Both the position numbers and the translations under genes were made by a program. A DNA stretch of 64,000 nucleotides from Rhizophlyctis rosea (taxonomy: Eukaryota; Chytridiomycota; Chytridiomycetes; Rhizophlyctidales; Rhizophlyctidaceae), in assembly GCA_027596075.1 (NCBI GenBank), contig JADGJC010000182.1:19302-83301 (forward strand), read 5' to 3'. The notes beneath the pieces are model-generated. The model was not told the origin of the DNA, ran no database searches, and saw only the letters and a list, made by a program, of their open reading frames with translations. The first letter of the stretch is position 1, and every line of letters begins with the position of its first letter. This document shows, piece after piece, positions 24,880 through 48,857 of the stretch.

Positions 24880-26743
24880 TCACGCTTGATACTGGGAATG
24901 TATGCCGGGTGGAGGCGAGTTCGATTCGAGTTTGGGAAACCGGGAAGACGACGACGGTTTGCGACGCACGGCGGGTTTGCGCCTGACGTATTTCCCGTCC
25001 AAGCATTTCGGGGCCGGGTAGTCGTAACTTTTCCTCTTCAAACTGCGCAGTTGTATGTGCCCCCAATCCCTCCGAACCGCACCTTTTTCCACTTCATAAT
25101 GCTGCCAGAATGGCCCGTTCAGGCGATGCCATGTGTTCTTCTTCATGAGGTCTGGGGGGAGTTCGTCGATTGGGGCGTCAGTTGTTGGTTCGTCGTCGGT
25201 TGACGTGTCGCTGGGGGGTACTGCGCGTCGTTTTCGACGCACGGCGCCTCTTGCTGTTGCAAGAGTGCGGCATTGAGGTTGGGAGGGTTCGCTTTCTGTT
25301 CATGTTTGGTGGTGTGTCTGTGTCGAGTGGAAGAGGACTGTCGTTTTCGACGAATCTCAAAATGAATCCAGGCGCCTTGCACACCGTGTATGTGGACATC
25401 GTGTGAACCTTGTTGTCGAGAGTTTCATGAAGAGTTTGATAGGACACTGTCGGTGAGGGTGAGGATGATGGCGTGTCGAGGAGAACTTTGCCGCCATCTG
25501 GCGTGAATGCGAAACGTGGTTCGTAACTGTGATCATCCATCTGCTCCTCATCCTCCTCGTCATCATGCATCTGCCCCTCATCCTCCTCGTCATCATGCAT
25601 CTGCCCCTCATCCTCCTGTTCATCATGCATCTGCTCCTCAACTTCCTCGTCACCATGCATCTGCTCCTCAACTTCCTCGTCATCATGCATCTGCTCCTCA
25701 ACCTCCTCGTCATCGTCGTTATCATCAGTCCCATCTTCCAACTCTCCCTCCGACATCCCTTCCTCCATCGCCTCAACGTTCCTGGGTACCGATGACGCAG
25801 GTCCCGTCTCCGCAGCACGTCGTCGCCCCGTCCCGCCCTCCCCTCTTTTCCATCTGAGGTATCGCTGGAACTCGCAAAGCTGGTGTTCCAAATCACATGG
25901 CCGCAACTCTCCGAATCCTCTTCCCTTTAGGATATCGTCAGATTGCCGCAGCGCGTCTCTGCGGAGAAGTTCTCGGTTCACTTCCTTCGTCAGGTAGAGT
26001 ATTTGACCGGACTTCGTTTGAGCTTGGGAAAGGCTTCCGTTCTCGCCCATCAGGATGTTCAGGCCTAATGAAGATATTTATTGATGTTCAGTCCAACGTC
26101 AATGCAATGTACGGTACCAACTATTGCGCCCGGCCCTGGACGGACAAAAGCGGGGTCGTATGTCGCGAATTGGTACATGACCATGTCTCGGCAACCTTGA
26201 TAGGCGTGGAAGTTGCCGACTAAATCCAGAGATCTCTGGGCTTTGTAGACCTTTTGTTGGCTCGGCGCACGTGGTCGGTAGCCGTTCGTGGGGCGGCCAA
26301 ACAAAGTCTTATTTGACATTGCCGCCTTTCCCCAATTCCTCTGCATGGCTTCAACAAAATCGTGCAGTTTGTACGGTGCTCGAAACCCCGTAGGCCGCCA
26401 TCCTTCGCCATTCGTATCCATTTCGATAATGCTTTTCAATGCAGCTTTGTGATCGGTTACGTAGCCAATTTTCCTGCTCGTGACCCCGTTTGAGAGATGC
26501 CGGTGAAATTGTACGTTCCAGAGATAATTTTCATCGGTGTGTGGATCTTTGCCGGCGAAGATTTCCTCGGCGAGTACTTTGAAGGTTTTGTCGTCTTCAC
26601 GGCGAATGCAACAGAAACTGTATTGTTGCAGAATCAAGTTTTGCGTCCATGGAGTTGAACAATCTTGGGCTCTCCTGATCTCAATGCGTTTCCGTTCTTC
26701 CAGATAGTTGCAAAGCTGCTTCATTTGACGGTCTGAAAACATG
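24880..26743 (-). CDS. HMUDK/aGPT-PPlase-type helical domain protein with acidic repeats
   Basis: The N-terminal 250 residues resemble the helical domain known from 5-hydroxymethyl-dU DNA kinases and the alpha-glutamyl/putrescinyl-thymine pyrophosphorylase families described in studies of DNA base hypermodification. Diagnostic pieces are YLEERKRIEIRRAQ, PWTQNLILQQYSFCCIRRED, a central NFHAYQGCRDMVMYQFATYD, and, after an intron at about 26054-26118, DLEHQLCEFQRYLRWKRG. A tail of six 10-residue acidic repeats (EEVEEQMHDD type) follows, then basic clusters. The shorter reading ends near 25178. A later frame down to 24880 reads WHRLNGPFWQHYEVEKGAV and RDWGHIQLRSLKRKSYDYP, which look like real coding sequence, so one more intron near 25240-25350 is likely but unresolved. 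The substrate is unknown. Fungal members often occur near transposons; none is evident here. Confidence 0.6.
25531..25710 (-). repeat. 30-bp coding tandem repeat, six units
   Basis: Six consecutive 30-base units, each built as CATCATGCATCTGC followed by a CCTCA(T/A)C-rich half, run from 25531 to 25710. On the minus strand each unit encodes ten mostly acidic residues ending QMHD or a variant. The multiple-of-three period keeps the frame of the surrounding gene. Units differ at a few bases (CTCC/CCCC, ATCC/ACTT), so they are not a perfect recent expansion. Copy number is likely variable between strains. Confidence 0.9.
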
Positions 26744-34139: not shown

Positions 34140-34874
34140 NNNNNNNNNNNNNNNNNNNNNNNNNNNNNNNNNNNNNNNNNNNNNNNNNNNNNNNNNNNNN
34201 NNNNNNNNNNNNNNNNNNNNNNNNNNNNNNNNNNNNNNNNNNNNNNNNNNNNNNNNNNNNNNNNNNNNNNNNNNNNNNNNNNNNNNNNNNNNNNNNNNNN
34301 NNNNNNNNNNNNNNNNNNNNNNNNNNNNNNNNNNNNNNNNNNNNNNNNNNNNNNNNNNNNNNNNNNNNNNNNNNNNNNNNNNNNNNNNNNNNNNNNNNNN
34401 NNNNNNNNNNNNNNNNNNNNNNNNNNNNNNNNNNNNNNNNNNNNNNNNNNNNNNNNNNNNNNNNNNNNNNNNNNNNNNNNNNNNNNNNNNNNNNNNNNNN
34501 NNNNNNNNNNNNNNNNNNNNNNNNNNNNNNNNNNNNNNNNNNNNNNNNNNNNNNNNNNNNNNNNNNNNNNNNNNNNNNNNNNNNNNNNNNNNNNNNNNNN
34601 NNNNNNNNNNNNNNNNNNNNNNNNNNNNNNNNNNNNNNNNNNNNNNNNNNNNNNNNNNNNNNNNNNNNNNNNNNNNNNNNNNNNNNNNNNNNNNNNNNNN
34701 NNNNNNNNNNNNNNNNNNNNNNNNNNNNNNNNNNNNNNNNNNNNNNNNNNNNNNNNNNNNNNNNNNNNNNNNNNNNNNNNNNNNNNNNNNNNNNNNNNNN
34801 NNNNNNNNNNNNNNNNNNNNNNNNNNNNNNNNNNNNNNNNNNNNNNNNNNNNNNNNNNNNNNNNNNNNNNNNNN
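34140..34874. other. Assembly gap (735 N)
   Basis: A run of 735 undetermined bases. Both flanks (about 34080-34139 and 34875-35058) are long C-rich or mixed C/G homopolymer stretches unlike the rest of the window, and probably reflect failed base calling through a hard template. The true content and length of the gap are unknown. Long open frames spanning it are artefacts. Confidence 0.95.
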
Positions 34875-35128
34875 ACCCACCCCCCGGACCCCCCCCCCCC
34901 CCGCCCCGCCCCCCCCGACCCCCCCCCCCCCCCCCCCCGCCCGGCCGCCGCCCCTCTCCCGCACCGCCCCGCCCCCCCCCCCCCCACCCAACCCCCGTCC
35001 GCCCCGGGCCCACCCCCCCCCCGGGCGCCCGCCCGCCGCCCCGCCCCGGCCCCCCCCCACGTGTTTGAGAGGGAGGCAAGGAGAAGGCATCATGTGCATT
35101 GGAATGAGGGGGTGATACCATCATCGTG

Positions 35129-43719: not shown

Positions 43720-44777
43720 TTCACAGCCATAGAACCGATGAGGAATCATTTATTCATTCAGAAGGGGGGAGAGACGGGATTCAGGGCAGTGACTGGCAGA
43801 GGTGATGTCGGAAGTCAGGGGCGAGTTGAATCATGCTAGTGCATGCCCCGGCTTGTGTTTGTTGCTGAACATCGAGAGTTCTGCTGTTCCTCTTGCATAC
43901 ACTGCTCAACACGAAGATTGGACTGGCGGAATGGAAGAAGCACTTGAAGTAGATGGCTGGCTGCGTAGGACCATTAAACAAACTACCGTAATCCGCAGAG
44001 TGCGCTGATTCGCAGCAAACCTGCACTCTCCAAAGTCACTAGGTAGATGTTGTTCGTCCCTACTAACTCTACTATTCGTTGCGTTCATTGATGGGAAGAT
44101 GGGAGTGCGGTAAACCAAGAATGCTGTTCTGAGATGGACCCCTTCCCAAAAAGAGCAAGTAGAGCATGGGAGACGCTTAGTCATGTTCTGATAAATGTTA
44201 TGTCATCAAGAGCACCAACCCATCGTATCGACGATTGGCTATGACGTTTGTTTTCGGCCGATAAAATTTTCCCACTCGCCAAAAGTTGCTGGCCAGTCGG
44301 GCACTGTTTGAGGTGGAGTGGGGTCAGCGACCGCCGGACCGTATGCCCATTCTCATCATCGTATCACGCCACGTGACACGCAAAAAAGCCATATCGGGAT
44401 GGGCGCTGACCCAATTGGGCAGGTGACAGATGAAATGAGTCACAGAGACAGCTCATTATCGATCGGGTTTCGTTCGGTTTTTTCGCTTTCCTGGCCCAAT
44501 CCGAATCTCGGTCCAGCCCGATCATGAGAAAATGATTGAACAGTCAAGCAACCGAGATACGGTCAGCAATAGACTCATTCCGGGTAGCCTCCCTTTATCT
44601 TTGAAAAAGCCCTCTTGCCCCCAACGTCTCCCTTCTTCTCCCCTCGTCCACTTGCAGTCGCAAAACTCTTTCGCCTTACGCAAAGTAACAACTCCTTGTT
44701 GTAACAGCAACCTTTTCACTCCGAGCAATAACCCTCGGAGTCTCACATTTCTATTCTTACTGACACCAGTCGGGCGT
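43720..44777. other. Intergenic region and CPA1 promoter
   Basis: About 1 kb between the membrane-protein gene and the CPA1 leader. Open stretches on either strand have no recognisable content. CT-rich sequence from about 44580 to 44770 probably belongs to the CPA1 promoter or its 5' leader. No TATA box was found with confidence. Confidence 0.4.
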
Positions 44778-45074
44778 ATGTACCGTCATCACTACGAGAA
44801 GGTAAGGCATCTGTAGATTGCGGGAAGGCTGTTGCGAAGTAACAGGAGTTTCTCACATGGGTTTCAATATCAACAGGTTAGCAACGACTACATCTCGGAC
44901 CAGGTATGTTTGAGAACGATCACTCACGGGGTTGGCGATGTTGCACACATCTCAAAAGATTTGGGTGGAAATTGGCTTTTACCATGACTGAGAGGGGTTG
45001 GGGATTGGTCATTATGGGAAAAGCTGACCCATATTTAATTTTAGGTCTACAAGAACTCTGGTGAAAATTTCTGA
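44778..45074 (+). CDS. Upstream ORF resembling the arginine attenuator peptide
   Basis: A spliced upstream ORF in the CPA1 leader encoding 26 residues. Exons are 44778-44801, 44877-44903 and 45045-45074, with clean GT-AG introns (GTAAGG..CAACAG and GTATGT..TTTTAG) and phase 0 at both joins. It ends at TGA 105 bases before the CPA1 ATG. Its middle reads DYISDQVYKNS, which lines up with the DYISDHIW-K core of the arginine attenuator peptide of yeast CPA1 and Neurospora arg-2. That peptide stalls ribosomes in high arginine and represses translation of the same enzyme. The Asp that is essential in Neurospora is kept; His and Trp of the core are replaced by Gln and Tyr. Length also agrees (24-25 in known cases). 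Arginine regulation here is inferred. Confidence 0.75.
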
Positions 45075-45179
45075 ATCTGAATAGCACTGCTCCATCCGCA
45101 CCGCATCCCATACTTTCAAACCAACGTTTCCGATACCCCATCCCACTACACCTACACCGCCCTATATACGGATACAAAA

Positions 45180-46697
45180 ATGAACTCCATCACCGCAAAG
45201 ACTCTTTTCCGCCCGGCCGTTGCTGCCGCTTCCAGGGCTCTCATGCGCCCCACTTTCATCGCAGCCCCCATCAAGGCTCGCGCTGGATTTGCCGCTGCTC
45301 GTACTCTTGCTACCGTTGTCAATGACGGGCCCCTCATGCAGAACCCGCCCAAGAACCAACCGGAGCCCCCCGTCCTTCCCGCTGTGTTCCGTCTCAAATC
45401 CGGCCAGACCTTCCAGGCAAAGTCATTTGGTGCTCCTCTTGAGAAGCCCATTTCTGGTGAAGCCGTTTTCACCACTTCTCTTGTTGGTTACCCCGAATCG
45501 ATGACCGACCCTTCCTACCGCGGTCAGATCCTTGTCTTCACCCAGCCGTTGATCGGTAACTACGGTGTGCCTTCTGCTGCCCGTGATGAGTGGGGTCTTT
45601 TGAAGCACTTTGAGGCCGAAGGTATTCAGGTCAAGGCGATCATCGTCAACGACTATGCCTTCAAGTACTCTCACTGGAATGCCATCGAGTCTCTTGGTCA
45701 ATGGTGCGCTCGTCACGGCGTTCCCGCCTTGACTGGCATCGACACCCGTGCTGTCGCCGTTGCTTTGCGTTCGGAGGGTTCCATGTTGGCTGAGATCCGC
45801 ATTGGGGAGGAGGCCATCAAGGCTCCGGAGGGTGCTTGGGAGGATCCCAACGCCAGGAACTTGATTGCCGAGGTGTCCACCAAGACCAAGAGGACCTACA
45901 ACAAGGGTGGAGATGTCAAGGTTGCTTTGATTGGTAAGGGTCGGATAAAGAAGGCTTTTGTCATAGGCACTTGTATTCACCATCTGTGTTTTGTATAGAC
46001 TGCGGTGTGAAGCACAACATCATTCGTTGCCTCGTTTCTCGTGGCGCTGAAGTTGACGTCGTCCCATGGGACCACGACCTTGCCAACGACCCTACCCCCT
46101 ACGACGGTATCTTCATCTCCAACGGACCCGGTAACCCCGCCATGGCCGCCAAAACCGTCGCCAACCTCCGTGCTTTCATGGCCGCTCAACCCGACGTCCC
46201 CGTTCCCATTTTCGGTATTTGCATGGGTAACCAACTCTTGGGGATGGCCGCCGGCTTGAAGACGTACAAGCTTCCGTTCGGTAACCGTGGTCACAACCAA
46301 CCGGCGCTCAACCTCGACACCGGCAAATGTGTGATCACGTCCCAGAACCACGGTTACGCTCTTGACGACAAGGTTGCTTTGAAGGACTGGGTTACTTACT
46401 TCCGTAACGCCAACGACGGGTCCAACGAGGGTATCAGGCACGTCAAGTTGCCTTACAAGTCTGTTCAGTTCCACCCGGAGGCTATGGGCGGTCCCCAGGA
46501 CACTGAGTACTTGTTCCAGGTGGGTTGAGTTTGTGCTATTTGGACTCTCATTATGGAATGTGCACTTACCTTCACACCCGCTCTCGCAATAGGACTACCT
46601 CACGGAAGTTCGGGAATACAAGGTTCTCCGTGCCAAGGCCTCCCAAGGCGTGACCGCTGAGCAACCCCTTCAACAGGCTGCCGCCGCGTCCGCCTAA
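45180..46697 (+). CDS. CPA1: Arginine-specific carbamoyl-phosphate synthase, small subunit
   Basis: The glutaminase subunit that supplies ammonia to the large subunit for carbamoyl phosphate in arginine synthesis. Three exons (45180-45933, 45999-46519, 46593-46697) give 459 residues. The first 45 residues are Arg/Ala/Ser-rich without acidic residues ([18 protein letters not shown]), a mitochondrial targeting peptide. CPSase small-chain motifs follow: [42 protein letters not shown], then the amidotransferase domain with [24 protein letters not shown], the nucleophile [11 protein letters not shown] (Cys), [17 protein letters not shown] and VQFHPEA (His, Glu of the triad). It is a separate subunit, not the fused CAD/URA2 form. 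Codon use is C-rich, suggesting high expression. Confidence 0.95.
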
Positions 46698-48037: not shown

Positions 48038-48857
48038 ATGCCCACACCTCCCGATAGAACACAGTCGACGGGCGCAACGTCCTCTACCTCCACCCATGAG
48101 GTTGATGTGAATAATGTAAGGTTCACCACATAAACGTGCAACCATTTTGAGACCGATATTAAGAAGCCTTTTTTCTTGTGTCATGTAGGCAACGCCAGAA
48201 ATGCTTGCGGAAGCCGAACGCGACTTGCAGGAGCTTATCAGTCGGAAGAAGACGGTGGATAGGAACCTTGTGAGTCGTTCTTGCACGTCTTGTCTTTGCC
48301 TTCTATACTCCTTGGTTGACCATACATACAGGCGGACCTAGAACGGAAAATCTACGCACTGGAAACATCGTACCTTGAAGAGACGCAGTATGGGAACATC
48401 ATAAAGGGATTTGAGGGATACTTATCGGGACGCGGGGAGAAGAAGCAGAAGTTTTTGCAGGATACTGATCGGTTGTTTTCGCTTTCGAGTGCTACGTGGC
48501 AGAAGGTGGGAGTCGGGAGCGCATAGCACTTGCTTTGCTCTATTCTGCAAATGGCGAGCTTCAAAACAAACTGAACAACCACGCTGACGTACTTGCAATC
48601 TGTTGCGATCATGATTTTTTTGGATATAGGCACTAGAAGTCCACGCCCGTGAATCCCGCGACCACCGCGACCCGTCCGAAGACCTTACAGCCGCTTCTCC
48701 TGCGCTGTTGAAAGCCGGCAGTTCAATGAAGAAGTTGAAGAGGAAGAAGTTGTCGTTGGGTGGTGGGTTGAGTGGGTTGGGGGCGGATGATGGGCCGGCG
48801 ACACCGCTTAGTTTGAAGAGGAAGAAGACGAAGGTGGTGGAGGATGATGATGAGTAG
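48038..48857 (+). CDS. EAF6: Histone acetyltransferase complex subunit EAF6
   Basis: A small subunit of NuA4 (and NuA3/MOZ-type) histone acetyltransferase complexes. Four exons give about 185 residues. A low-complexity start (PPDRTQSTGATSSTST) is followed by the EAF6 coiled coil, ELISRKKTVDRNLADLERKI, then YALETSYLEETQYGNIIKGF and GYLSGRGEKKQKFLQDTDRL, ending FSLSSATWQKAL. The YLEET..GNII.G.. pattern is diagnostic of the family. The C-terminal third has Lys-rich clusters (KKLKRKKLSL, LKRKKTKV) that look like nuclear localisation signals, and an acidic end. The ATG lies just after an A-rich leader. All introns are GT-AG and in frame. Confidence 0.9.

Follow-up and report, generated by a model that had tools for sequence, protein, structure and literature searches.

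Among eukaryotic arrest peptides that sense a metabolite, the arginine attenuator peptide (AAP) is a textbook case, and the locus analysed here raises the question of whether the leader of the CPA1 gene of Rhizophlyctis rosea, a chytrid of the order Rhizophlyctidales, encodes a form of it outside Dikarya. The taxa for which an AAP is named in the consulted parts of three papers are ascomycetes and Cryptococcus (PMC7049704, PMC11550727, PMC7969011). No chytrid AAP appeared among the titles and abstract openings listed in our literature searches, several of which covered part of the matches (such as 40 of 67, 20 of 41 and 12 of 169), and the survey of Hood 2007 may already discuss one. A chytrid AAP form, if true, would make the mechanism older than Dikarya; the preliminary description of this DNA had drawn a similar consequence in case the organism was an early-diverging fungus, as its membership of Chytridiomycota confirms. 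We analysed a window of 64,000 nucleotides, 19302-83301 of contig C93, and give all further coordinates within this window; we also searched the R. rosea genome assembly (44.1 Mb, 634 contigs). Upstream of CPA1 lies a spliced upstream open reading frame (uORF), predicted from sequence to comprise three exons and to encode MYRHHYEKVSNDYISDQVYKNSGENF, 26 residues ending at a TGA stop. The features are as follows.

44778..44801, + strand: uORF exon 1, MYRHHYEK; AUG context cgggcgtATG, with C at -3 (weak)
44802..44876, + strand: leader intron 1, 75 nt, phase 0; GTAAGG...ACAG, with a CTCAC branch-like site 25 nt from the 3' end
44877..44903, + strand: uORF exon 2, VSNDYISDQ, the conserved core by sequence comparison
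44904..45044, + strand: leader intron 2, 141 nt, phase 0; GTATGT...TTTTAG, with a CTGAC branch-like site 21 nt from the 3' end
45045..45074, + strand: uORF exon 3, VYKNSGENF and the TGA stop, from the spliced reading frame
45075..45179, + strand: uORF-CPA1 spacer, 105 nt, AUG-free and in frame, with another in-frame TGA one codon past the uORF stop
45180..46697, + strand: CPA1, arginine-type carbamoyl-phosphate synthase (CPS) small subunit, 459 aa; exons 45180-45933, 45999-46519 and 46593-46697

This exon-intron arrangement ahead of CPA1 agrees with the preliminary description in its coordinates, in the phase of both introns and in the length of the peptide. The CPA1 protein contains CPSase small-chain and GATase domains (Pfam), and a protein search of the genome in which the best candidates were scored detected a single arginine-type copy; the second-best match (L005) was a CAD-like open frame, the CPSase large-chain-like continuation of which was judged by eye. 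The NCBI label "Multifunctional pyrimidine synthesis protein CAD" is attached to arginine-type CPA1 in R. rosea and in many other early-diverging fungi (P0001, P0002 and others) and looks like a propagated misnomer; a separate CAD-like gene is present in the R. rosea genome. Downstream of CPA1 is a gene for the NuA4 subunit EAF6 (48038-48498 as far as it was read; two short introns; Pfam NuA4, 91 bits).

When the leader is spliced and read from 44700, two AUGs are found, that of the uORF with C at -3 and that of CPA1 in the good context tacaaaaATG, with A at -3. Intron 1 of CPA1 and intron 1 of EAF6 have the same GTAAGG donor as leader intron 1. CTNAY branch-like sites occurred in just two of the six other introns looked at (the introns compared included two C2H2 introns, picked by eye), and their presence therefore lends the leader introns little weight; at 141 nt, leader intron 2 is also longer than the six compared introns (62-91 nt).

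We compared the predicted peptide with the AAPs of N. crassa arg-2 and S. cerevisiae CPA1 (PF08252; PDB 2xl1), which it resembles in its place directly before the gene for the arginine-specific CPS small subunit, in its D-Y-[IL]-S-D core, in a basic residue at position 20, and in its similar length. The cores, DYISDQVYKNS in R. rosea and DYISDHIWKTS in the AAP, align without a gap; the preliminary description had matched the same residues correctly and had inserted a gap that is not needed. Residues D12, Y13, S15, D16 and K20 are kept and, as also described previously, His17 of the AAP is replaced by Gln and Trp19 by Tyr, while the Asp that corresponds to yeast D13 is retained. The N. crassa peptide likewise has its Asp at residue 12, but the R. 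rosea tail beyond the Asp is longer, 14 residues compared with the 12 of the N. crassa and yeast peptides, two more lying past the core; the equal length given in the preliminary description is corrected accordingly. The R. rosea uORF further differs in being split by two introns and in having EKV before the core where the AAP has VFT/QYT. Among the sequence traits of an AAP, R. rosea has a uORF within the leader of the gene for the arginine-specific CPS small subunit and a D-Y-[ILV]-S-D core including the Asp, whereas the His-x-Trp that follows the core of the N. crassa and yeast peptides as HLW or HIW is QVY here; Trp19 of the AAP is important for stalling. The Pfam family Leader_CPA1 (PF08252, cut-off 18.5 bits) did not match the uORF peptide at E<=10, as against 56 bits for the N. 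crassa peptide and 58.8 bits for the yeast peptide; across the R. rosea genome it gave one match, on another contig, at 15.7 bits and thus below the cut-off. Because of the His-to-Gln and Trp-to-Tyr changes, the two extra residues, and the missing Pfam match, we treat the R. rosea peptide as an AAP variant.

To gauge chance resemblance, we scanned the 644-nt leader for uORFs of 15-45 residues with 0-2 introns (donor GTRNG, acceptor YAG, intron length 45-200 nt) and scored them against the N. crassa and yeast AAP cores. The proposed peptide was the top-scoring match, with a score of 40. None of 790 genomic stretches of the same length did as well (maximum 32); these were taken from both strands of the window and of 200 kb of contig C224, the CPA1 leader and N-containing stretches being excluded. 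Simulated leaders from an order-1 Markov model also stayed below (0 of 6000; maximum 34), and a chance origin is therefore unlikely. In the 44 Mb searched, the pattern GAYTAYATHTCNGAY for DYISD-coding sites, which covers TCN serines only, matched six times, the uORF being one of these, compared with two matches for the reversed pattern.

The same departures from the AAP would also suit a conventional inhibitory uORF with a peptide insensitive to arginine, its core being kept for some other reason or its function having been lost after the His and Trp changes: the peptide has Gln17, Tyr19 and two extra residues past the core, and lacks a Pfam match. We consider this reading very unlikely, as the exchange of Trp for Tyr is conservative, both being aromatic, a uORF that acts solely through being translated is not expected to preserve its peptide, and the core is conserved between chytrid lineages.

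The evidence for this conservation comes from CPA1 gene models of other fungi in which the leader peptide is merged with CPA1, which we used as a proxy for leader DNA. Protein searches, from which we took the best 120 of 7965 matches (CPA1-alone query), the best 120 of 5074 and the best 120 of 2191, yielded 258 distinct proteins overall. Among the best 120 of 7965, a whole-sequence pattern scan identified one homologue with the core, P0117, from a Rhizophydiales-like chytrid. Its N-terminus is MEIIAQSHKFEKVSQDYISEQV, within which the stretch FEKVSQDYISEQV aligns to the R. rosea 13-mer YEKVSNDYISDQV with a score of 53; this score was reached by none of 5000 shuffles of the R. rosea peptide (mean 19.3, sd 3.3, maximum 39), each scanned over 256 N-termini, that is, the 258 minus the two fusions from Dikarya (P0121, P0122). 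In a tree of 57 hand-chosen CPA1 proteins, P0117 grouped with Globomyces (99/73) and Boothiomyces (98/84) and R. rosea with Borealophlyctis (100/99), and these separate groups indicate that the two sequences represent different chytrid lineages; Globomyces is placed in Rhizophydiales, and we take Boothiomyces to belong there likewise. The peptide core is thus conserved in at least one further chytrid lineage, as represented by the fused gene model P0117. The match also spans both R. rosea splice junctions, EK|VS and Q|V, and because the conserved peptide continues across both of them, the predicted splicing of both leader introns is indirectly supported. The gene order, the spliced ORF, the AUG contexts, and the core ahead of CPA1 in the gene model of another chytrid can all be read directly from the sequences.

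A further, weaker match is P0125 from Paraphysoderma sedebokerense (Blastocladiomycota), with N-terminus MYSAYTHACEKVQLDYVS / MYSAYTHACEKVQLDYVSRNTL including EKVQLDYVS, which surfaced among the best 120 of 5074 matches in a search whose query included the R. rosea and P0117 peptides. With P0117 also excluded, leaving 255 N-termini, 6 of 5000 shuffles reached the score of 31 that its 9-mer, picked post hoc, attained. Given that its 13-mer scored 27, within the shuffle range (maximum 39), and that the 9-mer was selected after inspection, P0125 is suggestive as an additional conserved case. Conservation of the DYISD core in relatives, on which the preliminary description had staked its reading, was found in P0117 and less strongly in P0125. 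When all models were scanned with a set of cores that included those of P0117 and P0125 themselves, five of the 258 scored at least 38 against any core: P0117, P0125, P0166, and the Pezizomycotina models P0121 and P0122, which carry PF08252. P0166 is a CPA1 model placed near Pezizomycotina in the tree, whose residues 1-22, starting MRLFGTRISQDYLATSLWKSRQ, may be a merged leader with DYLATSLWK; it was excluded from the zoosporic count. The zoosporic form was seen in 2 of the 258 CPA1-type models scanned, a figure that says little about prevalence because models beginning at the CPA1 ATG cannot display it. A search of genome contigs for fungal CPA1 leaders gave 101 relatives, the 80 kept being bacterial or archaeal by title, and searches of viral contigs gave 1 and 2 loci.

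In both P0117 and P0125 the motif lies within the predicted protein, as an in-frame fusion to CPA1, and taken as drawn these models would make the conserved stretch an alternative N-terminal extension of CPA1 produced by alternative splicing. This explanation is extremely improbable: in R. rosea two in-frame stops follow the uORF, and joining exon 2, from its donor, to either AG within 45046-45179 gives no open CPA1 frame; in addition, P0121 and P0122, both from Pezizomycotina, likewise have a PF08252 leader merged onto CPA1. In favour of the AAP reading, D, Y and S are invariant across the six aligned leaders (three zoosporic, three Dikarya). Against it, the residues past the core in P0117 (VLES) and P0125 (RNTL) do not fit the AAP. 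EKV before the core is common to the three zoosporic peptides and absent from the three aligned Dikarya peptides.

This shared EKV is one point in favour of an independent origin, according to which an arginine-responsive stalling uORF arose separately in zoosporic fungi and its likeness to the Dikarya AAP is convergence. A proposed precedent exists in Toxoplasma gondii, where, in the consulted part of the report, ApiAT1 carries an arginine-responsive uORF encoding an AAP-like peptide whose Asp is required (D19N), and where the authors propose convergence (PMC8370653). The precedent, however, sits on a different gene, one for an arginine transporter in an apicomplexan, whereas the R. rosea peptide precedes the same gene as the AAP, in a similar place in the leader, with the Asp at residue 12 and an ungapped DYISD..[VI][YW]K.S match. 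We regard convergence as unlikely and favour common descent on the grounds of the same gene, place, and core; we infer that ancestry is shared with the Dikarya AAP. Whether nascent-peptide arginine attenuation of CPA1 was already present in the common ancestor of Chytridiomycota, Blastocladiomycota, and Dikarya, with a zoosporic form EKV..DY[IV]S that is intron-split at least in R. rosea, is a broader proposal to which we give about an even chance. If true, it would place the peptide among the oldest traceable eukaryotic metabolite-sensing arrest peptides.

Taken together with these comparisons, the sequence features make it likely that the CPA1 leader of R. rosea, a fungus outside Dikarya, encodes a divergent AAP, by which ribosomes are stalled when arginine levels are high. 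In yeast, according to the consulted text, the nascent AAP stalls ribosomes at the uORF stop when arginine is high, and D13N abolishes the arginine effect (PMC7969011). A second report describes, in the part consulted, the AAP mRNAs of yeast and N. crassa as substrates of nonsense-mediated decay (NMD), and the Cryptococcus CPA1 orthologue as having a uORF ascribed to the AAP with strong ribosome occupancy and an mRNA that is 5-fold up in a upf1 mutant (PMC7049704); the latter case resembles R. rosea in having a uORF on a CPA1 orthologue and differs in being basidiomycete, the comparison being drawn from that description. By analogy with the Dikarya AAP, stalling, arginine dependence, and NMD would operate at R. 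rosea CPA1 as follows. Once the two introns are removed, ribosomes that begin scanning downstream of 44535 would encounter only the weak uORF AUG and then the good CPA1 AUG. At low arginine, the uORF would be skipped or quickly finished and CPA1 would be made. At high arginine, the nascent peptide, acting via D12-Y13-I14-S15-D16 and probably Y19-K20, would halt the ribosome at the uORF stop or close to it; the stalled ribosome would block scanning and may route the mRNA into NMD, and CPA1 would fall. The natural variants Gln17, Tyr19, EKV, and the longer tail would then inform what the ribosome tunnel needs for arginine sensing.

The length of 26 residues presupposes a transcription start downstream of the ATG at 44532, and the ATGs at 44524 and 44532 become relevant if transcription begins upstream of them. 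The second of these is in frame with the uORF: the 94-codon frame at 44532-44816 enters the uORF in frame and terminates within intron 1, ending in MYRHHYEKVRHL, and transcription from upstream of 44532 would add 82 N-terminal residues to the spliced peptide. Such an extension need not abolish function, since the AAP is described in the consulted part of a review as functional wherever its conserved residues stand within a peptide (PMC11550727). The preliminary description had held that intron retention gives a short, different peptide, which is true of intron 1, the product being MYRHHYEKVRHL, and not of intron 2, where 44 residues would be made with DYISDQV kept. Retained introns would bring extra AUGs ahead of CPA1 (44857; 44906, 44938, 44984, 45014), and retention is therefore expected to repress CPA1 in any case. 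An intron-split AAP poses the question of whether splicing is coupled with stalling; that splicing additionally gates arginine control is possible, if speculative and improbable. The earlier view that the uORF is unusual because it is split by introns was overstated, as a conserved uORF with introns is already known elsewhere from the consulted part of one report (PMC2075485).

Several minor features of the window were also recorded. A TGAGTCA (GCN4/CPC1-like) site at 44436-44442, ~340 bp upstream of the uORF, is one of 6 in the window where 10.3 are expected, and is thus not above chance. Within 34400-35059, N letters, from an assembly gap or masking, were read from 34400 to their end at 34874, after which come ~180 nt that are largely C with G interspersed; this C-rich stretch looks like an assembly artefact, in agreement with the skew at 34-36 kb. 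A 30-bp repeat is present in six copies, 92% alike, at 25532-25714.
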